Part shown: in pieces, positions 2,287 through 59,534 of the stretch
Layout: each line of letters starts with the position of its first letter
Numbering within the stretch: position 1 is the stretch's first letter
Source of the DNA: a virus
Length of the DNA stretch: 60,563 nt
IMG/VR virus record: IMGVR_UViG_3300036828_000612
Span: 1-60,563 of that record
Reading direction: 5' to 3' (one strand)
Position numbers and translations under genes: made by a program
Notes under the pieces: model-generated
What the model was told of the DNA's origin: nothing
Database searches by the model: none
What the model saw: only the letters and a program-made list of their open reading frames with translations

Positions 2287-2949
2287 TCAACGCCACCGTC
2301 CGGTCCGATTGTCGGATTCTGGCTCTAGAGTGGCGCTGGACGCCGCCGAGCCACTTTCGGCATCCTTGGGCCAATAATGCTCGCGGAGCCGCTCTAGCGC
2401 GCTGTGAAGCCTGCCGTGGGCACGGTCCCGGTGAATATCGAGACTGGCTGCCAACCGGGTGATGGTCCAATTGCCCAATACGACGTGGTTGAGCACCATC
2501 GCTGAGTAGGTGCCGACTGCCCCGCAGGCCGCGCGATACCGGGCCATGGCCTCAAGACTGCTATCGGGCACGCCGCTATTGGTTCCTCCATCGATGTAAT
2601 CCATCGTTCCGGCGCCATGGGCACCGACATAGGCGCGCTCGTAATCGCTGAGCAGCCGGTCCGCCGCCCGGACATGGGCCGCAGTAATCTCCCGCGGACA
2701 TGAGGCATGCAGGCTGGCGATCGTCCAGACGCGGCGCCAGCCATGGACGTCGCGCGCGCCGTGCTGGCGGGCCCGATGCGACACGGTGTCGGTTGGGTCT
2801 TTCCAATCGGCAGGCTCGACCATGGCGGGGCGAATGACACTGCCGTCCGCCTCGGTGGCCGGCACACGCAGGATATCCGCGGGGCCATCTGGTAGGAGCT
2901 GATAGACCGCTGTGCCGTTTTGGTGACGGCGGTTCCGGCGCTTAGGCAT
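2287..2949 (-). CDS. DUF6456-like DNA-binding protein
   Basis: This is a 220-residue protein that ends the early operon. The C-terminal third contains a predicted helix-turn-helix (NWTITRLAASLDIHRDRA) and ends in LERLREHYWPK, resembling the DUF6456 family of alphaproteobacteria and their phages. The N-terminus is basic (MPKRRNRRHQ). The start overlaps the preceding gene by 8 bases, which argues for coupling and against the longer frame from 3096. It may act as a late transcription regulator, which is inferred from its position only. Confidence 0.6.
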   Translation of the reverse strand: MPKRRNRRHQNGTAVYQLLPDGPADILRVPATEADGSVIRPAMVEPADWKDPTDTVSHRARQHGARDVHGWRRVWTIASLHASCPREITAAHVRAADRLLSDYERAYVGAHGAGTMDYIDGGTNSGVPDSSLEAMARYRAACGAVGTYSAMVLNHVVLGNWTITRLAASLDIHRDRAHGRLHSALERLREHYWPKDAESGSAASSATLEPESDNRTGRWR

Positions 2950-3319
2950 CGGAAACGACCTCACGGGCAGCCAAGGCGGCAGCGGCGTTGCTAGCGCCGC
3001 TGGTATCGCGGCGAATGCCACGATCCGCCGCAACGCCGGTGATGTGGAAAATGTGCAAGAACACGCGATCTCTCGTGCGCGCATATGCGACGCCATGGGA
3101 GGCGCCCCAGGCTTCGCCGCGGGTGGCCCATTGGATGTTATGCTCTACCCCATACAGGGTGGCCGCGTCGACGGTCGCACCAGGTGGCGCTGCATTGACG
3201 GCGGCGCAAGAGGCGGTGCGAATGGCCTCGCGGGTTTCGCCAGCGCTGTACGTGGCGACGTCCATGGCCCAGCTGGTGGCAGCGATAGTGGCGGTTGTGA
3301 CAACGTCGCTGAATTTCAT
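2942..3319 (-). CDS. DAT-repeat-like protein (degenerate)
   Basis: This is a 125-residue protein of unknown function. Residues 8-38 show a four-residue period of Ala and Thr (TTATIAATSWAMDVATYSAG), a degenerate form of the Ala-Thr tetrapeptide repeat found at five other loci in this genome. The middle is non-repetitive and has several histidines and aromatics, and the C-terminus is Ala-rich. The start overlaps the upstream stop as TGATG. It looks like a repeat-family member that has gained or kept a unique domain. Confidence 0.6.
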   Translation of the reverse strand: MKFSDVVTTATIAATSWAMDVATYSAGETREAIRTASCAAVNAAPPGATVDAATLYGVEHNIQWATRGEAWGASHGVAYARTRDRVFLHIFHITGVAADRGIRRDTSGASNAAAALAAREVVSDA

Positions 3320-3570
3320 CAGGGCACCCTCTCCAAGAAATCCGGCGGCAGCAGGTGGGCGAGCTGCAGGACGTGCCGGGAAACGGCGGTCGCGAGAATA
3401 CCGCCGAGCGTGAGGCGCATGGGGTGGCCCTCCAGCGCACGGAGTTTGGCGCGAAGCTGCTCGGGGGTGAGGGTCTTCCAGGAAGCCTCTGCATCGGCGC
3501 GCTCGCGAGCGTGGCGGCCTCTCATGTCGTCGGCGGTCTCACCGACGCGGCGGTGGGTAAAGTCGCTCAC
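3319..3570 (-). CDS. Small hypothetical protein
   Basis: This is an 83-residue protein, charged and helical in its first half (RGRHARERADAEASWKTL), then LTPEQLRAKLRAL and a more hydrophobic C-terminus. No domain is recognised. It is coupled to the replication-type gene upstream by an ATGA overlap and to the next gene by TGATG, so it is translated as part of the early operon. Confidence 0.6.
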   Translation of the reverse strand: MSDFTHRRVGETADDMRGRHARERADAEASWKTLTPEQLRAKLRALEGHPMRLTLGGILATAVSRHVLQLAHLLPPDFLERVP

Positions 3571-4424
3571 AACGCGCTCCTGGCGAGGTGGCCATATCCG
3601 AGCGCTTCGAGCTGCTCGTCACGCGAGCGGATGGGGTCCTGGGCGTGCCATTGGCGCACCGGCGCTTCCTCGCGCTCCGGTTGCACTGCGGCGATCTGCT
3701 CCGAGACGGTCCGGACGGGTGGGTGGTAGAGCGGCTGGGCGCTCTCGCCGCGCAAGGATTTGCCCAGGGCGGCGGCAAGTTCGCCAACCGGTCCGGCCTC
3801 TCGAAGTTCCTCCCGGAATTGCTTCCGAGCGGTGCTGATGTCAGTCACTGACGGGTCGTCCTCTCGCGCGCTCGCGCGCACATTCCCCTTAGAAAGAAAG
3901 TAAGAAAGAGAATCTTCTTTCTTTCTTTCTTCTCTTTTCTCTGCTTCTGTCTCTGCTTCTGAGATTCTGGTTCTAGTAATAGGGTCCCTATTAGGGTCCC
4001 TTATAGGGGGGCTTGTAGGGTCCCTTGTAGGGGACCTATTAGGGGGGCTATTAGGGTCCTTGCCCTCCGCAGGGTCCTTCCAGCGTCTGGAAACATACTC
4101 CCGGCCCTCGTCGGAGCGGGCATAGTCACGCACCATTCTGCGACTGTAGATTGTGCCCGCCTCGGTCCGGCTGAACACACCATTGCCCTCCAACTCAGCC
4201 ATCAGCTTCCCGGCTACCTTCTCCGTGCAGCCCGCCCGGCCAGCGATCTGCTTTATGGTGGCCGCACCGCCATTGATCGTGAGGTGGCCGACCGGGGACC
4301 CCTCATGCGCCAGACACAGCATCTCCATCCATAATCCGCGCGCGGTCAGGCTGCACTCGCGCAACCCGGGGTCCCGCTGCCAGTCCTGCCACCAGAACTT
4401 CGACCACCTGTGTCCGTTGCTCAT
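3567..4424 (-). CDS. Replication initiator-like (DnaD/DUF1376-type) protein
   Basis: This is a 285-residue protein. Residues 1-110 resemble the winged-helix replication proteins of phages: KFWWQDWQRDPGLRECSL, then GLWMEMLCLAHE, then IKQIAGRAGCTEKVAGKL. A low-complexity Pro-Arg-Asp linker and a charged Glu-Lys region separate this from a C-terminal segment. It probably binds the origin or loads host replication proteins. The ATG at 4424 overlaps the upstream stop as ATGA, so I prefer it to 4433. The linker is encoded by short tandem DNA repeats. Confidence 0.65.
   Translation of the reverse strand: MSNGHRWSKFWWQDWQRDPGLRECSLTARGLWMEMLCLAHEGSPVGHLTINGGAATIKQIAGRAGCTEKVAGKLMAELEGNGVFSRTEAGTIYSRRMVRDYARSDEGREYVSRRWKDPAEGKDPNSPPNRSPTRDPTSPPIRDPNRDPITRTRISEAETEAEKREERKKEDSLSYFLSKGNVRASAREDDPSVTDISTARKQFREELREAGPVGELAAALGKSLRGESAQPLYHPPVRTVSEQIAAVQPEREEAPVRQWHAQDPIRSRDEQLEALGYGHLARSAL
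3891..4061. repeat. Polypurine/polypyrimidine hairpin and GGGTCCC-rich repeats
   Basis: Inside the replication-protein gene, 3891-3930 forms an imperfect inverted repeat of GAAA and TTTC blocks. Immediately beyond it, about 3982-4061 holds several copies of a TAGGGTCCC-like unit. Short iterated sequences within a replication initiator gene are typical of phage origins, so this is an origin candidate. It equally just encodes the low-complexity linker. Confidence 0.35.
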
Positions 4425-4936
4425 TGGCGCCACTCTTCCAGACGCTTGCCGCCCTTGCTGATGTTGCAGACCCGGCAGGACGTAATTAGGTTTTCCAGGA
4501 CGCTCATGCCGCCCTGACTACGCGGTATGACATGATCGCAATGAGGCTCGTCCAGACCTGAAATGCCGCAATATCCGCAGGTAAAGCTATCTCGATGAAA
4601 TACAGCATGACGTAGCCGCTGCCATGTGGCCGGCGGCACGTCGAGCGTATAGGGTCGCGCTCGATCAGCGTTCCACCGGTCCACCAGCGAAATCCCAAGC
4701 GAGCCGTCTTCCTTGGAGGTAAAGAACCGTTCCAAAGCTGGACGGAGAACGCGACGCCATCGTTTCAAGCCATAGTCTCGCGCGATCATCGCAAGCTGCT
4801 CATCATCGTCCGGCAACGAACCCTGCCACTGGTAGAACGACATCAACAGAATCAGCGCGCCGACTTGTTCAGCCGTCAGGCCGTTCGTTTCGACCATAAA
4901 CGAGCGGTGGTCGTATGAAAGATCGCGGCTACTCAT
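4421..4936 (-). CDS. DUF1376-HNH endonuclease fusion
   Basis: This is a 171-residue protein with two parts. Residues 1-100 look like DUF1376 (QVGALILLMSFYQWQGSLPDDDE, with conserved Trp and Arg later). Residues 105-171 form an HNH nuclease: CGYCG, DHVIPRSQGG, ENL and CRVCN, giving two zinc-binding CxxC pairs and the catalytic His. It probably nicks or cuts DNA in replication or recombination. Both ends overlap neighbours by ATGA. The fusion of a replication-type domain and a nuclease is less usual than either alone. Confidence 0.8.
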   Translation of the reverse strand: MSSRDLSYDHRSFMVETNGLTAEQVGALILLMSFYQWQGSLPDDDEQLAMIARDYGLKRWRRVLRPALERFFTSKEDGSLGISLVDRWNADRARPYTLDVPPATWQRLRHAVFHRDSFTCGYCGISGLDEPHCDHVIPRSQGGMSVLENLITSCRVCNISKGGKRLEEWRQ

Positions 4937-9435: not shown

Positions 9436-9725
9436 CCAACATCACCATGACCGCCACACCACGCGAAGATGATGACCTAAAGGACCTGCTGCTTAAAAGC
9501 ATCATCGCAGCACTGGAAACGGATCTGGCAGCAGCGGCCGGCGCGGTGGATTACCTGTCGCGCTTCACCGAGCGGCAGCTGCGGTGCCTGAAAGCCGCCG
9601 CGAACATCGTTGACGCCATGCGCGAATTGTTCGTGCATCTGCCCACCACCCAGGCCGCGGTCGTTCGTGACCTGATTAGCGTCTACGACGCCACACGCCT
9701 GGCGGACACGGATCAGCAACAATGA
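9432..9725 (+). CDS. Small helical protein
   Basis: This is a 97-residue protein, acidic N-terminus (TPREDDDLKDLLLKS) then long amphipathic helices. The C-terminus contains VYDATRLADTD, which echoes the DAT motif of the repeat family. The start is fixed by the ATGA overlap. The longer frame from 9369 is a read-through of the previous gene region. Confidence 0.6.
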   Translation: MTNITMTATPREDDDLKDLLLKSIIAALETDLAAAAGAVDYLSRFTERQLRCLKAAANIVDAMRELFVHLPTTQAAVVRDLISVYDATRLADTDQQQ

Positions 9726-9784
9726 CATCCAATATCTTCTTTGCCACGCTCGACGCCACCCGCACCGCCACCGAGAAGGACTGA
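9722..9784 (+). CDS. 20-residue DAT-repeat mini-ORF
   Basis: The ATG overlaps the preceding stop as ATGA and the ORF ends after 20 residues, four bases before the next gene. The peptide contains FFATLDATRTAT, i.e. three Ala-Thr tetrapeptide units like those of the long repeat proteins at 11855-12654. It is either a minimal family member, a remnant of a deleted repeat gene, or a coupling linker between its neighbours. Confidence 0.4.
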   Translation: MTSNIFFATLDATRTATEKD

Positions 9785-10243: not shown

Positions 10244-10355
10244 GTTGCTTAAGGCGTTAGATAAGCTATTCCAGGAATTGGAGGATATCCAGGACACCAT
10301 AAACCTGCTGGATGCGCTGAAGAAGAAAACACAAGAGAATGAGGAGTCGTCATGA
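10206..10355 (+). CDS. Small coiled-coil protein
   Basis: This is a 49-residue, acidic, heptad-patterned protein (VNELLKALDKLFQELEDIQD). The ATG follows GAGG and the stop overlaps the next ATG as ATGA. It resembles the N-terminus of the previous small protein in size and starts similarly (MNKP versus MNRP), so the two may be related tandem copies. The function is unknown. Confidence 0.55.
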   Translation: MNKPQPIDKNVNELLKALDKLFQELEDIQDTINLLDALKKKTQENEESS

Positions 10356-10888
10356 GCAAATTTATGACCAAGCCACCCAGTTCCTTCGCTCTGGAAGCAG
10401 CGATGACCGCGCTGTTGCAGGCACGCGAACAGCTCATGACCATCTCGCCGAACATCGCCGAAGATGTGACCCTGTACCTCGACAGCCTCGAAGGACTCGC
10501 GGAAGGCGATCCGCTCGGTGTGATCGATCGCATTGTTGATCGCAAGCTTCATCTTGAAGACATGCGGCAGGTCGTGGGCGCCAGAAAAACCGATCTCGCC
10601 CAACGGGGCGCCAGACTAGAGCGCGAGGAAGAATACTGGGGCTACGTCCTTTGCCAATTTCTCGATGCGCTTCGCCAAAAATCCTTGGAGCGTCCGACTC
10701 ACACGCTGAGCATTCACGACGGTCTGCCAGAGTTGATCTTGGAAGAGGAAAAGCTGGCCGAGCGGTTTCTGCGGGTCTACAAGACCCCAAACAAGACCGA
10801 GATTCGTCAGGCGTTGAAAGCCGGAGAGCATGTCAATGGTGCAGAGCTCGGTGATAAAAAGCCAATTCTCACGATAAGGACAAAGTAA
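10352..10888 (+). CDS. Siphovirus Gp157-like protein
   Basis: This is a 178-residue protein. The architecture matches the Gp157 family: an N-terminal helical region, two long helices around residues 60-110 (ARKTDLAQRGARLEREEEYW), and a C-terminal LP-E-x-x-LE region. In other phages, Gp157 members lie beside single-strand annealing proteins and are thought to aid resistance or recombination. Here it directly precedes the RecT-like gene, which supports the call. Confidence 0.65.
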   Translation: MSKFMTKPPSSFALEAAMTALLQAREQLMTISPNIAEDVTLYLDSLEGLAEGDPLGVIDRIVDRKLHLEDMRQVVGARKTDLAQRGARLEREEEYWGYVLCQFLDALRQKSLERPTHTLSIHDGLPELILEEEKLAERFLRVYKTPNKTEIRQALKAGEHVNGAELGDKKPILTIRTK

Positions 10889-10889
10889 C

Positions 10890-11858
10890 ATGGCAGATTT
10901 GCCGGTTGCATCCTCCCATCACGCAGCCCCGATGCGCTATGACGACATAGAACGCTTGGCCGGCGCCATAGCTAAAAGCCGTCTGTTCGGTATCACGACT
11001 CAGGATCAGGCCATAGCCCTGATGATGATCGCCCATGCGGAAGGCCGTCATCCGGCCCTTGCCGCGAGGGATTATGATATCATTAGCGGGCGCCCCGCCA
11101 AGAAAGCGGAGTCCATGCTGCGAGACTTTCTCGATGCCGGCGGCAAGGTGGAGTGGCACGCTCTAAGCGACGAAATTGCTGATGCGACATTCTCGCACCC
11201 CGCTGGCGGCAAGGCGCGTATTTCCTGGGATATGGCCAGAGCTGAAAAGGCCGGATTGGCAGGAAAGGACATGTACAAGAAGTTTCCCCGCCAAATGCTC
11301 CGTAGCCGCACTGTATCAGAGGGCGTACGCACTATCTGGCCGACAGCAACAAGTGGGTTATATGTTCCTGAAGAGGCCCACGACATGGCCACAGACGACA
11401 CGAATAGCAACAAGACAACGTTGGATCATGTGCCGTCGCCAAAGATGCAACAGTCTCCCCGCCTGGAAGCTCCTGCCCCCGTCGCGTACGCTGTGCATAC
11501 TGTGTCCGCAGCGTCGGGACCGATCTCATTCAACAATTCCGCAGCGACACCGCCGCCGCCGAACCAGCAGAACGACCCGCCACCCCCGTCGTCGGACGAC
11601 AACGATGACACCGCTTTGTGGATAGCAAACCTGCGTGCCAAGCTAGCTGGCGCCGAGTACGGGACTGTCCTGAAGATTTCCAAGCTCAGGACCGTCACCG
11701 AGGCTCTGGCGCATGGACCGCCGGAAGTCCAGCGGATAGTGAACGAGCTGCTAGCTGATGCTTATGAAGCATGCGCGCAACGCGCAGACGAGCCGGTAAT
11801 CGAAAACGACCCACTGAGCGAAGTATTTCCGCCACAACTGCGGACACCGCTAGTATGA
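10890..11858 (+). CDS. RecT-like single-strand annealing protein
   Basis: This is a 322-residue protein. Residues 18-165 carry the pattern of this phage family: GITTQDQAIALMMIAHAEG, AARDYDIISGRPAKKAE, then KKFPRQMLRSRTVSEGVRT. The family is linked to RecT/Red-beta annealing proteins of phage recombination. The C-terminal part is a long Pro/Ser/Asp linker and an acidic helical tail. The gene sits after a Gp157-like gene and overlaps the first DAT-repeat gene by ATGA. Confidence 0.65.
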   Translation: MADLPVASSHHAAPMRYDDIERLAGAIAKSRLFGITTQDQAIALMMIAHAEGRHPALAARDYDIISGRPAKKAESMLRDFLDAGGKVEWHALSDEIADATFSHPAGGKARISWDMARAEKAGLAGKDMYKKFPRQMLRSRTVSEGVRTIWPTATSGLYVPEEAHDMATDDTNSNKTTLDHVPSPKMQQSPRLEAPAPVAYAVHTVSAASGPISFNNSAATPPPPNQQNDPPPPSSDDNDDTALWIANLRAKLAGAEYGTVLKISKLRTVTEALAHGPPEVQRIVNELLADAYEACAQRADEPVIENDPLSEVFPPQLRTPLV

Positions 11859-12394
11859 GCGCCACCTACGCCGCCACCCGCGCCACCGACGCCGCCACCC
11901 GCGCCGCTACGCTCGACGCCACCTGGGCCGCCACCCGCGTCGCCACCGCCGCCGCCACCATCGATGACACCTGGGCCGCCATTGCCGCCACCACCGACGC
12001 CGCCACCCGCCTCGCCACCGACCTCGCCACCTACGCCGCCACCGACCGCGCCACCTACGCCGCCACCCGCGACGCCACCCGCGACGCCACCCGCGACGCC
12101 ACCTGGGCCGCCACCTACGCCGCCACCCGCGACGCCACCCGCGACGCCACCCGCGACGCCACCTGGGCCGCCACCTACGCCGCCACCGACCGCGCCACCT
12201 ACGCCGCCACCCGCGACGCCACCCGCGACGCCACCTCCGCCGCCACCGACCGCGCCACCTGGGCCGCCACTCGCGACGCCACCCGCGCCACTCGCGACGC
12301 CGCCACTCGCGACGCCACTCGCGCCACTCGCGACGCCACCAGTGCCGCCACCGACGCCGCCACCCGAGCCGCGGCCTTGAAAGCTGCCCAATGA
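11855..12394 (+). CDS. DAT tetrapeptide-repeat protein, main copy
   Basis: This is a 179-residue protein made almost entirely of a four-residue repeat, Ala-Thr-x-(Asp/Ala), about 40 units. It runs MSATYAATRATDAATRAATL and onward, with x mostly Arg, Tyr, Trp or Ser. No signal peptide, cysteine or membrane segment is seen. The repeat is highly regular at the DNA level (12-base period, mostly GCCACC). The ATG at 11855 overlaps the upstream stop as ATGA, and the stop overlaps the next DAT gene as ATGA, so the frame is secure. The function and fold are unknown; a regular helix or solenoid is plausible. Confidence 0.7.
   Translation: MSATYAATRATDAATRAATLDATWAATRVATAAATIDDTWAAIAATTDAATRLATDLATYAATDRATYAATRDATRDATRDATWAATYAATRDATRDATRDATWAATYAATDRATYAATRDATRDATSAATDRATWAATRDATRATRDAATRDATRATRDATSAATDAATRAAALKAAQ
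12061..12180 (+). repeat. Two perfect 60-bp tandem copies in the DAT gene
   Basis: Bases 12061-12120 and 12121-12180 are identical. Each encodes five tetrapeptide units. The surrounding 11855-12394 is a looser 12-base repeat. Perfect identity suggests recent expansion by slippage or unequal recombination. Confidence 0.9.
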
Positions 12395-12654
12395 TGAACA
12401 CCAGTGTCCGCGATGCCATCTGGGCCGCCACCCTCTACGCCACCCGAATTGCCACCTCCGATGCTACCTATTGGGCCACTTACACTGCCACCTATGCCGC
12501 CACGCTCGACGCCACCAGTGAAGCCACCGGCGACGCCACCATCGATGCCACCGATGCCGGCACCCTCGCCGCCACCATCGATGCCACCGACGCCGCCACC
12601 CGCGCCGCCACCGACGCCGCCATTCTTGACACAACAAGCGCAAAAGGAGACTGA
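12391..12654 (+). CDS. DAT tetrapeptide-repeat protein, second copy
   Basis: This is an 87-residue protein of the same Ala-Thr-x-(Asp/Ala) repeat, with a more varied third residue (WAATLYATRIATSDATYWAT). It is ATGA-coupled to the main copy and two bases from the DUF6745-like gene. Its codons are less uniform than those of the main copy, so it is probably an older copy and not a fresh duplication. Confidence 0.65.
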   Translation: MMNTSVRDAIWAATLYATRIATSDATYWATYTATYAATLDATSEATGDATIDATDAGTLAATIDATDAATRAATDAAILDTTSAKGD

Positions 12655-12655
12655 A

Positions 12656-13702
12656 ATGGCAAAAACCAAAATCAAGGCGACAAAATATAGCCTGACACCA
12701 GAACACCGGGCGCAATTCGAGCCATGGCGGGACAAATGGATTAGCAACGCTATGTCCACCGCGGCCATGACGAACGAAGATCAAGAAATCTGTCGAGATG
12801 CCGTCGTTCGGCTCTATCGAGCCGCGAATCTACCGCCGCCGCAAAACATTGTCTTTACGACATCGCCCTTTGCTGCGCGTTTTGCGGCGGGCTTCGCCGC
12901 ATGGATTTGGCATCTGCGCGCCACAAATTTGCCTGTTCCCACCCCCAGGGAACCCATCTTTACCGCATCAGAACCCAACCTGGACAACTGGTATGTCTGT
13001 TCATCGGGGATGGTCGAGCTCGCAGATGCCCTAGGCGTTGGGAAAGCCGGACTGGATTGCGCCGTGATGGCTGGCGATCGCCTCCACCAAGGTGGCAACC
13101 AATGGCCGTCCTACGATTCCTTCCTGTCCTTCTTTCGTCACATCGCCAAGCTGCCATTGGACTACTCCAAATGGGATGCATGGGAGACGCTCGCGCTGCA
13201 TTCGGGCCCTCGGTACGTGCACGCTAATTTCTGCATCATATCCGACCGGCCGGAACTCTTGGTGGTCGACGACGCCAGGCGCCCACACAGCTTGACGGGG
13301 CCGTTCTGCCGCTGGCGGGATGGCTCGGCGCTCTATGCGGTGCACGGGACGCGAATACCGGCAAAGTGGATCGAAGACAAAGACTTCCTAACCCCGTCAA
13401 TGGCTCTTAAATGGGGAAATATCGAGGAACGCCGCGCGGCATGCGAGATTCTGGGATGGAACAACATCCTAGACGAATTGCGTGCAAAAGTGATAGACAC
13501 GGACTACGACCCTGAAATTGGTCAACTCGTTGAGGTAACGATGCCAAATGTTGGCCGACAGAGGTTTCTGCGCGTTCGATGCGGAACCGGCCGTGACTTC
13601 GCCATTCCGGTGGCACTATCGGAGACGACCGCGTTAGAAGCAAATGCCAGAAGCTATGGAATATCGCCTGACTTTCTACGAAAAAAGGAGCATCGCACAT
13701 GA
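12656..13702 (+). CDS. DUF6745-like protein
   Basis: This is a 348-residue protein. The ATG at 12656 follows AAAGGAGA; the longer frame starting at 12404 is an artefact of the repeat. Residues 140-345 carry features I associate with DUF6745: GGNQWPSYDSFLSFFRHIA, HSGPRYVHANFCIISDRPE, GPFCRWRDGSALYAVHGTRI, then NIEERRAACEILGWNN and FLRVRCGTGRDFAIPV near the end. The biochemical role is unknown. In other phages I recall the DAT repeat fused to this domain, so the split arrangement here suggests one functional unit. Confidence 0.65.
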   Translation: MAKTKIKATKYSLTPEHRAQFEPWRDKWISNAMSTAAMTNEDQEICRDAVVRLYRAANLPPPQNIVFTTSPFAARFAAGFAAWIWHLRATNLPVPTPREPIFTASEPNLDNWYVCSSGMVELADALGVGKAGLDCAVMAGDRLHQGGNQWPSYDSFLSFFRHIAKLPLDYSKWDAWETLALHSGPRYVHANFCIISDRPELLVVDDARRPHSLTGPFCRWRDGSALYAVHGTRIPAKWIEDKDFLTPSMALKWGNIEERRAACEILGWNNILDELRAKVIDTDYDPEIGQLVEVTMPNVGRQRFLRVRCGTGRDFAIPVALSETTALEANARSYGISPDFLRKKEHRT

Positions 13703-14043
13703 CCAAACCAGTCACTAAATCTCCCAGCTTTCAGGGAGACATTGCTGTCTTTCGAATCCAAAGCATCCCAAAGGACGCCGTCCGGATGGACACTGCCGGC
13801 CAGCATCATGTTTTGGCGCACAGCGAAACCGGGCATCATCATGTTATCGGCACGAAGTCGGCGACATTGTTCATCGACAAAATGAACGCATTCATCATGT
13901 ATTTGGATGTCGCGGAATCCTCTGCGATTGAGCACCTGAAGGACTTTGACCAGCACGAGCCGCTGGGCCTCACTCCCGGAAAGTACGAGCTCCATCGGCA
14001 ACAGGAATACATCGCTGACGCATGGCGTCCCGTGACGGACTGA
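13699..14043 (+). CDS. Small companion of DUF6745 protein
   Basis: This is a 114-residue, His-rich protein (QHHVLAHSETGHHHVIG) with a beta-rich core and the C-terminal motif LHRQQEYIADAWRPVTD. Proteins of this FQGDIAVFRI...GHHHV type are often found just downstream of DUF6745 genes. The clustered histidines could bind a metal. It overlaps the DUF6745 stop as ATGA and ends the rightward operon, seven bases from the convergent structural operon. Confidence 0.6.
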   Translation: MTKPVTKSPSFQGDIAVFRIQSIPKDAVRMDTAGQHHVLAHSETGHHHVIGTKSATLFIDKMNAFIMYLDVAESSAIEHLKDFDQHEPLGLTPGKYELHRQQEYIADAWRPVTD

Positions 14044-14049
14044 GCTTCT

Positions 14050-14841
14050 TCAGCCAACGATCTGTGGAACTATCGTCTTGATGGCGATGGTCTTAGAGGC
14101 TGGTGGTGGCGGTGTCACCACCAGCCTCGGGTCTGTGAAAGGACCAGTCCAGGACGGCATCGCGGGCGGCACAGCTACGTCCTGATACCACTGGTTGCCC
14201 GCATTGACATGCCACATGCCGCCGGGCGCGAGCTTCAACACACCTGTGACGTTGGCGGTGTTCGCATCTGTCACACCAGCCACCGCCACTTTTGCGCCCG
14301 TCGTGATAGTCCACGCACGTAATGTGTGATCGATGACTGATGGCACGCCGTTGACGGCCTGGGTGGATATGAACGTACCATCGGGGCTCTCGGTGACAGC
14401 CGGCGGCGGTGTCACCACCAGTCTTGGGTCCGACTTAGGACCAGTCCACGATGGCATGGCAGGCGCGGCGGCCGTGTTCTGATACCACTGCCCGGCCTTG
14501 TTGACCTGCCACATGACACCGGCCAGCTTCAGAATGCCGGCAACATTGGCTGTGTTTGTGTCAGTCACACCGGCAACCGCCACTTGCAAGCCAGCCGTGA
14601 TGGTCCACGCACGCAATGCATGATCGATGATCGATGGCACGCCATTGACGGCCACGGTGGTAACGAATGTGCCGTCCGGGCTCTCGGTAACAGTCGGTGG
14701 CGGGGGCGGCGGGAGCGTCCCTGCTGCGGTTTCCAGTGCTGCGACTTTTGTCGCGGTGGCAGTGATTGTGGCAACAGCCGTGGTGATGGCGGCGGCAGAC
14801 GCGCGCAGCTGATCCGCCAGTGGGGTTGGTACAGTGGCCAT
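14050..14841 (-). CDS. Virion-associated protein with two WY-rich repeats
   Basis: This is a 263-residue protein at the end of the leftward structural operon. The N-terminus is a helical Ala-Thr-rich segment (QLRASAAAITTAVATITATA), then a Pro run. Two repeats of about 95 residues follow, each with ESPDGTF, NGVPS-IDH-LRAWTIT, QWYQ and PAMPSW. Repeats of this kind are found as appended modules in carbohydrate-active and tail proteins. It is probably a tail or envelope-directed accessory protein; the function is not proven. Confidence 0.55.
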   Translation of the reverse strand: MATVPTPLADQLRASAAAITTAVATITATATKVAALETAAGTLPPPPPPTVTESPDGTFVTTVAVNGVPSIIDHALRAWTITAGLQVAVAGVTDTNTANVAGILKLAGVMWQVNKAGQWYQNTAAAPAMPSWTGPKSDPRLVVTPPPAVTESPDGTFISTQAVNGVPSVIDHTLRAWTITTGAKVAVAGVTDANTANVTGVLKLAPGGMWHVNAGNQWYQDVAVPPAMPSWTGPFTDPRLVVTPPPPASKTIAIKTIVPQIVG

Positions 14842-30912: not shown

Positions 30913-33309
30913 CTATCCGATGACCGTAACCGTGGTTCCGTTGGGCGACTCTGGCGAAAGTGCGAAATTGACAAAAGACGACGGTGTGACGAACCTGTAT
31001 TGAACCTGAAACCCCGTAGACGGGAAACCGGTTGTCGGATACAGCCACCGCACCGTGGCGGTTGATGCCGTGGTTGCTGGTACCGTCACGCCGGCCACCG
31101 GATCGGGCACGCCAATCAACCCGAGGGTCGTTGCCGCCGCCGCGGTAGAAGCTGCGCCAGTGCCGGCCGCATTCGATGCATATGCGCGGAACAGATAGGC
31201 GGTTGCCGACTGCAACCCTGTGACGGTCACCGGGCTATTGTTCGGCGGCGTGCCGGCATAGTCCTGGAAGTTCGCTCCGCCATCAGTCGAGTATTGAATA
31301 TTGTGGGTAAATGGCGATGTCCCGGTCGACGGATCTGTAAATGTGACAACGGCGCTTGAGGCGGTCAGCTGTCCGACACCAAGCCCGGTGATCTGGCCGG
31401 GAGCAACGACATTCGACCCGCCGCCGCCACCCGAGCCCCCCCATGTCGGGAAGCCCGATGGGAAGGTGATGGAGAAAGCCGAAGAGCCGGCATTCAGTAC
31501 GGCAACGCCGCCGGCTTCCTGCGTGGTAAATGCGATAAAGTAAGGGCCGGCGAACCCTATTGCCAGGCCGCCAGCGCCAGTTGCCGGGTTGGCTGTCGCC
31601 GAATCATTCCACGTTGCCGCCCCGTAGAATGTGCGCTCAGCCGGAGTTGTCGCCCAGATTTTCTGATTTGTTGCATCGACGCAGAACGATACCGTAACGG
31701 GGGTAACGTCGGCAGGCGGCGAGTTGGGGGGGTTCAAGAGGAAGTTGTTATTAAAGAACCAGCTTTGCGGGATCTGGGAATTCGGCCCGGTGAATGGATA
31801 GAAGCCGACCGACACATTGTCGCCGCCCAAGCCGCCGGCGCTGGCCAGATTATAGCCGGCCGTGCACAGGCCGACCGTGCAGTTTTGCGTTTTTGCGGTG
31901 AATGTCACCTCGAAGCTTGCGGTGGTTCCCGACGAAATAGACGTCGTGCTGTGAATGCCCTGCGGCGTTGCATAGACGGTTGCCGAACCGCCGGCGGTTA
32001 CTGTCAGACCGCCATTGCTCGTAACCATCGTAGATGTGGCGCCGATCGACTGCCAGGTGACGATTGGGGTTCCCGATCCCGCCGTCGTCATGGTGATCGC
32101 CGCGGAGAACGCGCCGGTGCCTATGGCGTTGGTCGCAGAGACTCGGGCATCGTAATTCGTGGCGGCAGTCAGCCCGGTGACTTGTGCACTCAGCCCGGGC
32201 ACATTGGGCCCGGTTTGCCAGTTATTCTGACCGGTCAGCGAGTATTGCACCTGGTAGGACAGCACCTCCCGGCCGCCGGGATTGGTCCAGGCCAGGGTAA
32301 ATGCCGTTGTGCCGATCAATGAGGCTACGAGACCCGTGGGCGTATTCGGCAGGACATCCCAGGCAGCGCCATGCGTGGCATACAGGGCGCTTCCAGGCAC
32401 CTGGATGGGATCCGGCGGCTGCCAGGCCGAGAGGATGGTCGACAGCCACAGGCGACGCCCAGCGGACGGCGGCGGCACATCCACCCTGTTATCGAGCAGT
32501 GCCGGCGGCAGTCGCCGTTGTGGCGTCGGCAGTGGGTCTGGCGGAATCCAGGCGGTCAGGACCGCCGTATTGGTGTTCACACCTCGCCCGCGGTGAGCGA
32601 ATGGGCTGTTGTCGACCTGAATTCCCAGCAGCGACGGCGGCAGTCGCCGCTGCGGCGTCGGCATCGGGTCCGGCGGTATCCACGATATGAGGATGCTGTT
32701 CGCTTCGGCTTGGTTCGACGTCCAGCCCCCGGCAACCGGCGGCTGATCCACCCGCGCGCCAATCAGGGCCGGCGGCAGCTTTTTCTGTGGTGTTGGCAGT
32801 GGGTCCGGCGGGATCCAGGCGGTCAGGATAGCGGAATTGGTCGTAGCGCCACGGCCGCGATTGGCGAATGGGCTGTTGTTTACCACCGCCGCCATGATCG
32901 ATGGCGGGAGCTGCCGCTGCGGCGTCGGCATCGGGTCCGGCGGTATCCACCAAGTCAGCAGGCCTATCGCCCCGGGGCGGCCTGCCGTCCAGCCGCCGGC
33001 GATTGGTGGATTGTCTGGGATGAACGGCGGCGGCGGCGGTGGCGGGATAATAAGTGGCGGCGGCGGCGTCAGATTCGCAACCTGCTGCCCCTGGATCGTG
33101 ACCTGCCCCTGGACCGTGACCGGCTGAAACGGCAGGCCGCCGGTTGCCGCCAGATCGACCGGCGACAGCGTCACCGTCACCACGCCGGTGAGAAACGGGT
33201 CGAGAAGGTTGTTGCCGCCCGCTAGACGGTTTGCCTGCGTCGCATCGCCAAGGTTCTGCGCGGCCAAACGCCAAAGATTGCCGCCGGCTTGGGAGACCTT
33301 GCGCGCCAT
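30913..33309 (-). CDS. PPDP-repeat and Fn3 fibre or baseplate protein
   Basis: This is a 798-residue protein. The N-terminus (VSQAGGNLWRLAAQNLGDAT) resembles LysM-like baseplate proteins. A proline run follows, then five W-x-PPDP-x-P repeats (about residues 115-305), the same unit as in the 18230-21886 protein. After this come three Fn3-like domains (first near TPTGLVASLIGTTAFTLAW) and a lectin-like region between them. It probably links baseplate and fibres. GGAG precedes the ATG. Confidence 0.7.
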   Translation of the reverse strand: MARKVSQAGGNLWRLAAQNLGDATQANRLAGGNNLLDPFLTGVVTVTLSPVDLAATGGLPFQPVTVQGQVTIQGQQVANLTPPPPLIIPPPPPPPFIPDNPPIAGGWTAGRPGAIGLLTWWIPPDPMPTPQRQLPPSIMAAVVNNSPFANRGRGATTNSAILTAWIPPDPLPTPQKKLPPALIGARVDQPPVAGGWTSNQAEANSILISWIPPDPMPTPQRRLPPSLLGIQVDNSPFAHRGRGVNTNTAVLTAWIPPDPLPTPQRRLPPALLDNRVDVPPPSAGRRLWLSTILSAWQPPDPIQVPGSALYATHGAAWDVLPNTPTGLVASLIGTTAFTLAWTNPGGREVLSYQVQYSLTGQNNWQTGPNVPGLSAQVTGLTAATNYDARVSATNAIGTGAFSAAITMTTAGSGTPIVTWQSIGATSTMVTSNGGLTVTAGGSATVYATPQGIHSTTSISSGTTASFEVTFTAKTQNCTVGLCTAGYNLASAGGLGGDNVSVGFYPFTGPNSQIPQSWFFNNNFLLNPPNSPPADVTPVTVSFCVDATNQKIWATTPAERTFYGAATWNDSATANPATGAGGLAIGFAGPYFIAFTTQEAGGVAVLNAGSSAFSITFPSGFPTWGGSGGGGGSNVVAPGQITGLGVGQLTASSAVVTFTDPSTGTSPFTHNIQYSTDGGANFQDYAGTPPNNSPVTVTGLQSATAYLFRAYASNAAGTGAASTAAAATTLGLIGVPDPVAGVTVPATTASTATVRWLYPTTGFPSTGFQVQYRFVTPSSFVNFALSPESPNGTTVTVIG

Positions 33310-48115: not shown

Positions 48116-48547
48116 TCATAGCTTCGCTAGAACGGCCAGAGATACGGCCACATTGACGGCCTCAATAATGGCATCGGTGGCGTTCGCGGTGTCGTTGGTG
48201 AGGTCCACCAGCGCATCGTGAAGGGTCTCGCCGCTGATGCTGTCTTCGGTGGCCTCGGTGACAACATCGGTGGCAGCCGCCCAGGTGGCGTCGTCGGTGG
48301 CGGTGGCAGCATCGGTGGCATCGCGGGTGGCAGCGTCGGTGGCTGGTTCACTTTCAGCCCCCGCGGCCTGATAGAGCGCCGTGCGGGAGGCTTCCCAGTG
48401 TTCCTCGCTGAGCGTGGCTAGGGTGGCAGTGTAAGTGGCACCGAGAGCGGCAGCGAGGATACCAGTGTGGGCGACGGCGAGTGCAGCATCGCTGATGATG
48501 GCGTCGCCGATGGCGGCGCTGGCGTCGTCAATGTCGCCCATGGTCAT
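48116..48547 (-). CDS. DAT-repeat protein within the neck operon
   Basis: This is a 143-residue protein. A central run (DAATRDATDAATATDDATWA) has the Ala-Thr tetrapeptide repeat, flanked by a less regular Ala-rich helical N-terminus (AAALGATYTATLATLSEEHW) and an acidic Asn/Thr-rich C-terminus. The ATG overlaps the upstream neck gene stop as ATGA. Co-transcription with head and tail genes suggests either a particle-linked or morphogenesis role. Confidence 0.65.
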   Translation of the reverse strand: MTMGDIDDASAAIGDAIISDAALAVAHTGILAAALGATYTATLATLSEEHWEASRTALYQAAGAESEPATDAATRDATDAATATDDATWAAATDVVTEATEDSISGETLHDALVDLTNDTANATDAIIEAVNVAVSLAVLAKL

Positions 48548-49212
48548 GTGGTTTCCTGGTTGGCCGTCAGCCGATAGCCGAGTGCGGTCAGTTCCGTCGA
48601 ACTCACGATATAGCGTTGCGTGATAGCCTGCTCATCGGTGACAACGTCACCGGCCCTGATCTGCACCCCGAACGGAATTGAGGATGGCAAGAGGATCGTC
48701 ACCCACGGCATCTTCACATCGCCCGGCAGCCGCGCGAACGGATCGGCCTCATTCCCCTTTGGTCCCTGCACCACGGCCGCGGGCCACGCGGTGAGGATGC
48801 GGGTTTCAGTCGCCGTCTCGTCGCCACCGTAGTAGCCTATCCCAGATGGAGGCGCCCCCGGACGACCGATCGTCAACGCGCGATTGCAGCGCGCCACATA
48901 GGCCGGCAGGTAGGTTTCCAGCGACGCAATGAAAAAGGTGCCGAGATTTGGATCAACGACATAGTCGCCAACCAGCACCAGCGAGGCGTCCAAGATACCC
49001 ACCCATTCCGGCTTACCGTATTTGCTCGGGAGGGTAAAGTTGAGGGTGGACCACGGATAGAACAGCGCCATAATCGGAGGCAGCGGGTTGCCAGAGACAA
49101 TCGGGTCGGCAGTGCTGATCGGGCGATAGTGGGCGCACGGCAAGCCGGCCTTTTGTGCTGACTTGCCGTAGCCGAATTGAACTTTGGTGGTGATCAGGTA
49201 TTGGTCGACCAC
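48544..49212 (-). CDS. Neck or head completion protein
   Basis: This is a 222-residue protein with SKYGKPEWVGILDASLVLVG, FFIASLETYLPAYVARCNRA, then MPWVTILLPSSIPFGVQIRA. The position between small head genes and the terminator-type gene fits a neck or head-completion factor. The start is a GTG at 49212. No family is named. Confidence 0.6.
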   Translation of the reverse strand: MVDQYLITTKVQFGYGKSAQKAGLPCAHYRPISTADPIVSGNPLPPIMALFYPWSTLNFTLPSKYGKPEWVGILDASLVLVGDYVVDPNLGTFFIASLETYLPAYVARCNRALTIGRPGAPPSGIGYYGGDETATETRILTAWPAAVVQGPKGNEADPFARLPGDVKMPWVTILLPSSIPFGVQIRAGDVVTDEQAITQRYIVSSTELTALGYRLTANQETT

Positions 49213-56192: not shown

Positions 56193-57385
56193 GTTGCCGC
56201 TCCGCGTCGGACGATCGTCGCTCGCCACCCCAGGCGGCGGAAGCTCGCACGCAGCCTGTCCGCATGCTGCCCGCGATAGTGGTGAAGGATCGGTGCGGTT
56301 ATCAGATCAAGCGCCTGGTCGAGACTGTCTTCCACCGCCTCGGGATCGCTCATCGTCCACAGCGCTGCGAGGTCGGCCTGCCGCTTCGGCAAACATGCCG
56401 GCGAATACCAGATGCACTCTTTGTCGGTCGTACCGTTGCCAGAATATGTGTGCTTGCCGCGCGACCACTCGACCGCATCCCATCTTGGCAGATCGTAATC
56501 GCCGAGATGCCCGCACAGCGCGATTCTGAGATGAGCGTTGTTACGAGCCCACGCTTCGACCGCGTCGGCCACCGGTGCCGCGTTGCCATACAGCCGTTCG
56601 TAGGAGCGATAGGGCGGATCGAGGAACACCGCCGTATCGTTGCCGCCGAAATGGTTGTTGAGGCACCGCGACCAGTCACCATGCACGATGCGGACCCGCT
56701 CAAGCCGCGCGGCGAGCTGGTGCAGCCAGCGCCATGCCGTCCGGCCCGAGGATGTCCAGAGGATCGGTTCGCCCATCCCCGCGTTGCTGGCGTGGGGCAC
56801 CTGGCCGATGGCCTGCACGCCCATCCCCGCGTCGCTGGCGTGGGGCACCTGGCCGATGGCCTGCACGCCCATCCCCGCGTCGCTGGCGTGGGGCACCTGG
56901 CCGATGGCCTGCACGCCCATCCCCGCGTCGCTGGCGTGGGGCACTTGATCCCACTTATCCGAGTTGCGCGGGCTATCCTCGCACCAACCCGAACCGATCC
57001 AACTGCACTGGCCCCACAGCCACCATCCCGCCACGGTCGCATCGCCAGGCCAGTGCGGATCGGCCAACGCCGCGCCAATGCGCTCGCGCTGTGCCATCAG
57101 CCAACCATGCCGCGCGCCGAGATCGATGTGCGATACCGGATAGTCGGCGGCTTCCGCCACCGCGCCTGGCTGGTGTTTGGTCGCGCGCCAGAAGTTCGCG
57201 AGGAAGCCCGAGGCGTCGTTGACCACTTCCAGGTCGGCGATGCGGGGGGCGGCCAGCAGCACGGCGCAGGAGCCCATGAACGGCTCGATATATTGCGACG
57301 GGGCGCCGAGACGTTCCCAGACCTCCGATGCAATGGAGCGCTTGCCACCGAAGTAGGGGAATGGTGCCAACAGCGCGGCGCTCAT
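56189..57385 (-). CDS. dam: D12-class DNA adenine methylase, repeat-expanded
   Basis: This is a 398-residue methylase. Motif I is PFPYFGGKRSIASEVWERLG near residue 8 and the catalytic DPPY is at FLDPPYRSYERL. Between them, about residues 145-205, four copies of VPHASDAGMG with a short linker come from a 48-bp DNA repeat. The C-terminal end is a mosaic of a segment from the 57417 gene and one from portal. It probably methylates adenine, protecting the phage or acting with GcrA. A start-linked mini-ORF (57382-57417) precedes it. Confidence 0.82.
   Translation of the reverse strand: MSAALLAPFPYFGGKRSIASEVWERLGAPSQYIEPFMGSCAVLLAAPRIADLEVVNDASGFLANFWRATKHQPGAVAEAADYPVSHIDLGARHGWLMAQRERIGAALADPHWPGDATVAGWWLWGQCSWIGSGWCEDSPRNSDKWDQVPHASDAGMGVQAIGQVPHASDAGMGVQAIGQVPHASDAGMGVQAIGQVPHASNAGMGEPILWTSSGRTAWRWLHQLAARLERVRIVHGDWSRCLNNHFGGNDTAVFLDPPYRSYERLYGNAAPVADAVEAWARNNAHLRIALCGHLGDYDLPRWDAVEWSRGKHTYSGNGTTDKECIWYSPACLPKRQADLAALWTMSDPEAVEDSLDQALDLITAPILHHYRGQHADRLRASFRRLGWRATIVRRGAAT
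56211..56340. repeat. Mosaic segment: two duplicated pieces joined
   Basis: Bases 56211-56302 match 57439-57530 with six mismatches in 92. The next base starts a 38-base perfect match of 56303-56340 to 58081-58118 in the portal gene. The two matches meet at 56302/56303 without a gap. Thus the methylase 3' end is built from two other parts of the same genome. Confidence 0.85.
56771..56944. repeat. 48-bp tandem repeat in methylase gene
   Basis: A 48-base unit starting GCCCATCCCCGCG recurs at 56771, 56819, 56867 and partly 56915, almost identical. It encodes four copies of a 16-residue unit (VPHASDAGMGVQAIGQ). Perfect spacing and identity imply recent expansion. Confidence 0.9.
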
Positions 57386-59264: not shown

Positions 59265-59534
59265 ATGACATATGAAACCTGGATCGCCATGGCCACGGAC
59301 GCCACCCGCGACGCCATCGAAAAGGCCATCAACGGAGAGGCCGAAAAGATGCGCGCCAGCACCTCTGATGCCATCTTCGATGCCGTTTACTGGGCCACCC
59401 GTGATGGCACCGACGCTACCTATATGGCCACACTCAAGGCCACCAGGGATGCTACTCACCAAGCCACCAGCATGGCGGCCGCCATCTATAGGCAACAAAA
59501 TAACTTATTGCTTTCTGTCGCCGCTGAGCTATAG
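59265..59534 (+). CDS. DAT-repeat protein upstream of portal
   Basis: This is an 89-residue protein. It begins MTYETWIAMATDATRDAIEK, has VYWATRDGTDATYMATLKAT and DATHQATS, a looser Ala-Thr four-residue repeat with intervening non-repeat stretches. It diverges from the portal gene with a 50-base gap. Sequence and orientation show the family is not confined to one operon. Confidence 0.6.
   Translation: MTYETWIAMATDATRDAIEKAINGEAEKMRASTSDAIFDAVYWATRDGTDATYMATLKATRDATHQATSMAAAIYRQQNNLLLSVAAEL

Follow-up and report, generated by a model that had tools for sequence, protein, structure and literature searches.

Stand-alone Ala-Thr tetrapeptide arrays beside a repeat-less DUF6745 gene in a phage: split form of a module found in other phages and prophages

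An early phage operon encodes two translationally coupled proteins, AT1 and AT2, that are nearly pure (Ala-Thr-x-Ala/Asp)n, followed by a DUF6745 protein devoid of repeats and by a small conserved protein. In most DUF6745 members found in other phages and prophages the array is inserted in the protein itself, and stand-alone arrays occur beside other repeat-less members; the window is accordingly an instance of the split form, seen at few loci, of a widespread module made up of array, DUF6745 and the small neighbour (13699-14043). We propose, with a probability of roughly 45%, that AT1 and AT2 are the detached arm of this module, and that this arm is helical, changes fast and has a counter-defence role.

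Results

Tetrapeptide arrays in the window

The window is the complete IMG/VR virus record IMGVR_UViG_3300036828_000612 (60,563 bases). When its open frames are scored with a tetrad profile derived from other phages, the top six are the six repeat loci that a previous sequence-only reading had named (Table 1). In residue-shuffled genomes (60 shuffles) the maximum score averages 15.1, with a highest value of 19.5. The arrays at 11855-12394, 12391-12654, 48116-48547 and 59265-59534 are far above chance, and those at 9722-9784 and 2942-3319 are marginal, at the edge of chance; when the sequence of 2942-3319 itself is shuffled, 12 of 5000 versions score as high. A strict five-unit DNA pattern with at most three mismatches gives 40 matches, all within 11870-12641, and none in the shuffles. 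At the four minor loci the arrays are shorter or decayed.

The period of the array DNA is 12 nt, in agreement with the earlier description of a four-residue rather than five-residue repeat. No match for AT1 or AT2 was found in Pfam, NCBIfam or PADLOC, and none of the window proteins matched a PADLOC defence family. The family phrog_18326 was considered for AT1 and AT2 and rejected (E=0.011, too weak). A tblastn search of phage records with AT1 returned no match, low-complexity masking hiding the repeat.

The start of AT1 overlaps the stop of the RecT-like gene as ATGA, as does the start of AT2 the stop of AT1, and the same overlap occurs at 9722 and, on the minus strand, at 48547. Coupling by ATGA, proposed for the loci in general, is thus present at these four starts; at 3319 the overlapping start is TGATG, and no gene is coupled to 59265-59534.

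Other tandem repeats in the window include a 48-bp repeat in the late region (56770-56944; 3.6 copies, 99% identical), two-copy duplications of 294 and 267 bp that are ~75% alike (14108-14703 and 32519-33000), and a 36-bp repeat, alternatively read as a 12-bp unit, inside the minus-strand ORF 3567-4433 (3980-4059).

Table 1. Array loci and genes of the AT1/AT2 operon in the window
Feature	Position	Strand	Tetrad-profile score	Evidence
ORF of 125 aa with decayed array, marginal	2942..3319	-	19.2	tetrad profile
Mini-ORF of 20 aa, three tetrads, marginal	9722..9784	+	20.8	tetrad profile
Mu Gam-like protein for DNA end protection, opens the operon considered	10352..10888	+		phrog_253 E=1.3e-16
RecT-like single-strand annealing protein	10890..11858	+		phrog_561 E=5e-13
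AT1, stand-alone (Ala-Thr-x-Ala/Asp) array, 179 aa	11855..12394	+	324	profile, DNA pattern, AlphaFold
AT2, second stand-alone array, 87 aa	12391..12654	+	131	tetrad profile; start overlaps AT1 stop
Repeat-less DUF6745 protein, 348 aa, conserved N-terminal domain, without array	12656..13702	+		PF20530 E=1.6e-14, alignment
Small conserved DUF6745 neighbour, phrog_27831-like, 114 aa	13699..14043	+		phrog_27831 E=4e-7
ORF of 143 aa with short array, between two late genes adjacent in relatives	48116..48547	-	38	profile, relatives
ORF of 89 aa, mostly degenerate array (A[T/I/V]xx), beside portal gene on opposite strand	59265..59534	+	30	

A DUF6745 gene without an array and its conserved neighbour

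The gene that starts one base past the end of AT2 belongs to DUF6745 (PF20530; 54.1 bits against a curated cut-off of 27), and lacks an internal array between its N- and C-domains. The protein encoded at 13699-14043 has no Pfam or PDB match and is recognized by the motifs GHxH...HEEH...RQREYTPEG and ...HEEH...YEVRRQREYTPEGxRRVxD, with kin at loci that include L149, L035, L049, L227 and L229. A neighbour of this type lies on the same strand, within 1.6 kb of the DUF6745 gene, at 95 of 121 loci; in many of the remaining 26 the contig stops close to the gene. It also accompanies the stand-alone arrays of L035 and L049, two records, possibly fragments, in which DUF6745 was not detected. Genes surrounding DUF6745 comprise early, recombination and regulator genes, and indicate no single clear function.

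Arrays inside DUF6745 in other phages and prophages

The sequence-only reading had suggested a search for the repeat, with gene neighbours, in phages and metagenomes. Viral contigs contain the five-unit DNA pattern at over 100 positions, and many of the matches with a readable frame are DUF6745 proteins that carry the array between an N-terminal domain (...SPxVMAFAxGFAAAIWxxRK) and a C-terminal domain (...YQGGNMW...). Selection bias was removed by searching with an alignment of the DUF6745 C-domain alone. This brought up 229 relatives from viral contigs, of which 80 were kept, and 22 from bacterial genomes; a scan with the window DUF6745 as the single query gave no viral-contig match. In this unbiased set an array is present, at one fixed place, in 79 of 94 distinct DUF6745 genes and in 48 of the 54 that are complete, with a median length of 37 and a maximum of 82 units (longest unbroken stretch, same detector). 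Metagenomic contigs often stop in the array (e.g. L125, L132, L154), which indicates that assemblies break there, and the copy numbers of such contigs are lower bounds. Two isolated phages have other tetrads at the DUF6745 array site, [GRW][DG]QL in prophiGD102-1 and [GREW]SSL in cta39025.

Frameshifts within the array shorten the protein in L239 (phage Ardmore gp46) and in L032/L188, and may be natural losses or sequencing errors.

The split form and the late copies

Repeat-less DUF6745 genes with adjacent stand-alone arrays occur in the window, L147 and L151 (five arrays each), L099 (one) and L041 (one, directly downstream). Repeat-less DUF6745 and stand-alone arrays are associated with p=0.0011 when every curated locus is counted, some of these loci having been found through the repeat itself, and with p=0.010 when the count is confined to the unbiased subset, where the association rests on two loci. 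The region 11855-12654, previously taken for a free-standing family, is better described as the split form of a module that is usually fused. The array is not essential, since some repeat-less DUF6745 genes (L131, L144, L160, L225 and L229) lack a stand-alone array in their vicinity.

In the position of the array mini-ORFs of L147, L131 has a tandem series of four to five non-array ORFs of ~75 aa (L131:6588-7669), and one non-array ORF of the L131 type (L147:7229-7429) continues the array series of L147.

The ORF at 48116-48547 is missing in ten relatives and in Komagataeibacter phage phiKX2, and because its two flanking genes touch in these genomes we interpret it as an insertion. Searching with the late gene 48547-49212 gave no viral-contig relative; its neighbour gene did yield relatives. 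Similarly, eight related portal genes have no counterpart of 59265-59534 beside them. Judged from these comparisons, both ORFs look like a recent lineage-specific spread of the repeat rather than conserved genes, and the earlier view of a family kept in several operons does not extend to these two minor copies.

DNA of the unit and turnover of the arrays

Within arrays, nine of the 12 unit positions are fixed, synonymous ones included, and the hypervariable positions are bases 1 and 2 of codon 3 and base 2 of codon 4. The AT1 unit reads GCC ACC NNC GMC, with C as the third base of the x codon in 30 of 35 units, and AT2 is looser. The same pattern of fixed synonymous bases and variable codon bases 1-2 recurs in ~120 arrays. 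Mean heterozygosity over 125 arrays lies between 0.02 and 0.07 for the six bases of Ala-Thr; for bases 1, 2 and 3 it is 0.63, 0.52 and 0.15 in codon 3, and 0.13, 0.37 and 0.11 in codon 4. Departures from an array's own favourite codon number 82 for Ala and 28 for Thr in 2741 units. In 52 of 87 arrays the Ala codon favoured at position 1 is not the one favoured at position 4 (in L031, GCT 94 times at position 1 versus GCC 67 times at position 4), and such position-specific preference means that codon bias is no explanation.

Of the single-step differences between unit types, 406 affect the three variable bases (x1, x2 and y2) and 20 the two fourfold-synonymous ones; the search required Ala-Thr, so that only synonymous change can be scored at the Ala-Thr codons. 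Per site, changes in the variable codons are 12-15 times commoner than changes at synonymous sites, and residue x is not dominated by one amino acid in any array. Genes with identical (100%) DUF6745 C-domains have arrays that differ by whole units, and at 97% or 91% flank identity the arrays cannot be aligned. In our reading, the arrays undergo frequent gain and loss of units combined with strong diversifying selection.

Predicted structure

AlphaFold models AT1 as a single helix (residues 3-178; pLDDT 81, pTM 0.37), in line with the helix envisaged in the sequence-only reading. In a fused protein the array is modelled as two long helices (71-139 and 147-198; block pLDDT about 49-81), placed around a confidently modelled DUF6745 core. 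AlphaFold often outputs long helices for Ala-rich repeats, and we regard these predictions as suggestive only. Ala recurs at every fourth array residue, which conforms to an AxxxA small-residue pattern on a helix that is itself predicted. A fold search of the PDB with the fused protein gave the winter flounder antifreeze helix as its best, non-significant hit (E=0.88) and no structural match for DUF6745; a search of a viral library returned solely DUF6745 relatives and fragments.

Comparison with known repeat systems

The sequence-only reading knew of no role for such repeats, and a precedent with a tested role is found in gp54 of mycobacteriophage Tweety, which has 40-48 tetrapeptide copies (PMC9262239, PMC8549241). 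Escape mutants overcoming prophage defence by Phrann gp29/gp30 or by MichelleMyBell have gained or lost repeats in gp54, and each change in repeat number is specific to one defence or the other (PMC9262239, PMC8549241). Tweety gp54 is the sole tested protein with repeats of this style, and its counter-defence activity is tuned by the number of repeats. Either gp54 or a relative occurs in 148 mycobacteriophage records.

Like the arrays described here, gp54 has a long tetrapeptide array with two fixed small and two variable residues, encoded by a 12-nt unit with fixed third codon positions and W/R/G/E/K/Q at the variable place. Its base pattern is the same, and was attributed by the Tweety authors to selection for variation (PMC2884959). 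Its copy number also varies between phages with near-identical flanks, and the gene likewise sits among small genes of unknown function. However, the gp54 unit is AAxx, whereas that of the window and DUF6745 arrays is ATxx. The gp54 array is flanked by N- and C-terminal domains, as in fused DUF6745 relatives but not in AT1 or AT2. With an hhalign probability of 0.3%, the gp54 N-terminal part is no homologue of DUF6745; gp54 has no Pfam match and contains no DUF6745, and its surroundings did not yield the DUF6745 neighbour gene.

Other systems share fewer features. The GxxxG(xxxG)n repeats of FliH/YscL also have a small residue at every fourth position, a variable copy number and a predicted helix (PMC2674601), but belong to an unrelated protein and use Gly rather than Ala-Thr; window-type arrays are far longer and hypervariable at positions 3 and 4, and neither AT1 nor AT2 has an NCBIfam match that would indicate FliH homology. 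As described in PMC2884959, VR2 of bbp36 in Bordetella phage BMP-1 is also a tandem coding repeat with variable copy number, non-essential for the phage, with a unit of 24 bp as opposed to 12 nt here. Pentapeptide repeat proteins likewise have a short-period coding repeat, but with period 5 and a beta-helix; the arrays, with period 4 and a predicted alpha-helix, fall outside that class.

Discussion

The literature library searched contains no paper on DUF6745, and no member is known to have an assigned function. In most phages the array separates the N-terminal from the C-terminal domain of DUF6745, and AT1 and AT2, placed just before a repeat-less DUF6745 gene, could act in trans with its product. 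The array would most likely form a long alpha-helix, with Ala as the small residue of an AxxxA stripe, and its length and exposed third and fourth residues change very fast. It might set spacing and binding specificity toward a fast-evolving target of the host or a prophage, most likely a defence complex. The early operon, running from the Gam-like and RecT-like genes through AT1, AT2 and DUF6745 to the neighbour, could then be an operon for intracellular takeover or counter-defence. In gp54, repeat number decides which prophage defence is countered, and for that reason we propose ATxx arrays as tunable arms. Counter-defence is demonstrated for gp54 and suggested by analogy for the window genes; because the gp54 N-terminal part is unrelated to DUF6745, the function would be carried over by repeat style alone.

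The array might instead be a passive, length-variable helical or flexible linker within DUF6745, its sequence nearly irrelevant, with AT1 and AT2 as split-off linker debris. Copy number is indeed free to vary, ranging from 4 to more than 80 units, whole arrays are replaced between near relatives, and DUF6745 proteins without repeats exist. We nevertheless consider a mere spacer unlikely, given that it predicts neither the excess of change in the variable codons nor the lack of a dominant residue x, and that tandem stand-alone arrays with their own starts (L147, L151 and L035) are unexpected of debris.

Equally unlikely, in our view, is that the arrays work without DUF6745, as multivalent baits or sponges that capture nucleic acid or several defence proteins, and merely share an accessory gene region with it. 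Such a role would suit the tandem stand-alone arrays of records without detected DUF6745 (L035 and L049) and the extra lineage-specific copies among the late genes of the window, as well as the fusion of an ATxx array with a DUF7666-like protein (L006:5864-6625; sub-threshold Pfam match) in a record where DUF6745 was not detected. In the unbiased sample, however, nearly every array sits at one and the same position within DUF6745, and the neighbour gene of DUF6745 is retained even in L035 and L049.

We think it rather improbable, though conceivable, that these phages hold a diversification system other than a classical diversity-generating retroelement, one that builds each array anew from one 12-base unit and then varies almost solely two to three fixed bases per unit. 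Such a system would produce modular helical binders whose residue series is new in every lineage, to serve as quickly re-tunable counter-defence arms both in DUF6745 and as separate proteins. A dedicated mutator acting on the arrays, in the manner of diversity-generating retroelements, is in our judgement distinctly improbable. Variation is indeed limited to 2-3 of 12 bases, with x codons mostly NNC or NNG. A classical retroelement, however, does not fit: it mutates all template adenines, whereas the adenines of ACN (Thr) and AGC are fixed and A is missing at x1 in 55 of 111 arrays, and a search for sequence motifs found no reverse transcriptase in 245 sequences.

That the arrays are non-coding or neutral satellite DNA, open in frame by chance, is scarcely credible and already refuted in relatives: GC-rich 12-nt tandem repeats are often stop-free, and the antisense frame is open too, but in other phages only the Ala-Thr frame is kept, across arrays that differ in their Ala (GCC, GCG, GCA or GCT) and Thr (ACC, ACG, ACA or ACT) codons, and this frame has overlapping starts and stops and runs on into conserved DUF6745 domains. 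The claim that the repeat is coding is borne out by ~120 arrays with different codons, with rare frameshifts only (L032/L188). Loss of the frame in relatives or a codon pattern without selection, named earlier as observations that would overturn it, is not what these arrays show.

If the gp54 analogy is true, a tested but unexplained counter-defence protein would be one case of a repeat style present at more than 100 phage and prophage loci, most of them inside the uncharacterised DUF6745 family and accompanied by a conserved neighbour of an unnamed family. The split form offers a clean experimental handle, with repeat and core as separate proteins, and the combination of fixed synonymous bases with hypervariable third and fourth residues makes the way in which arrays diversify a testable question.
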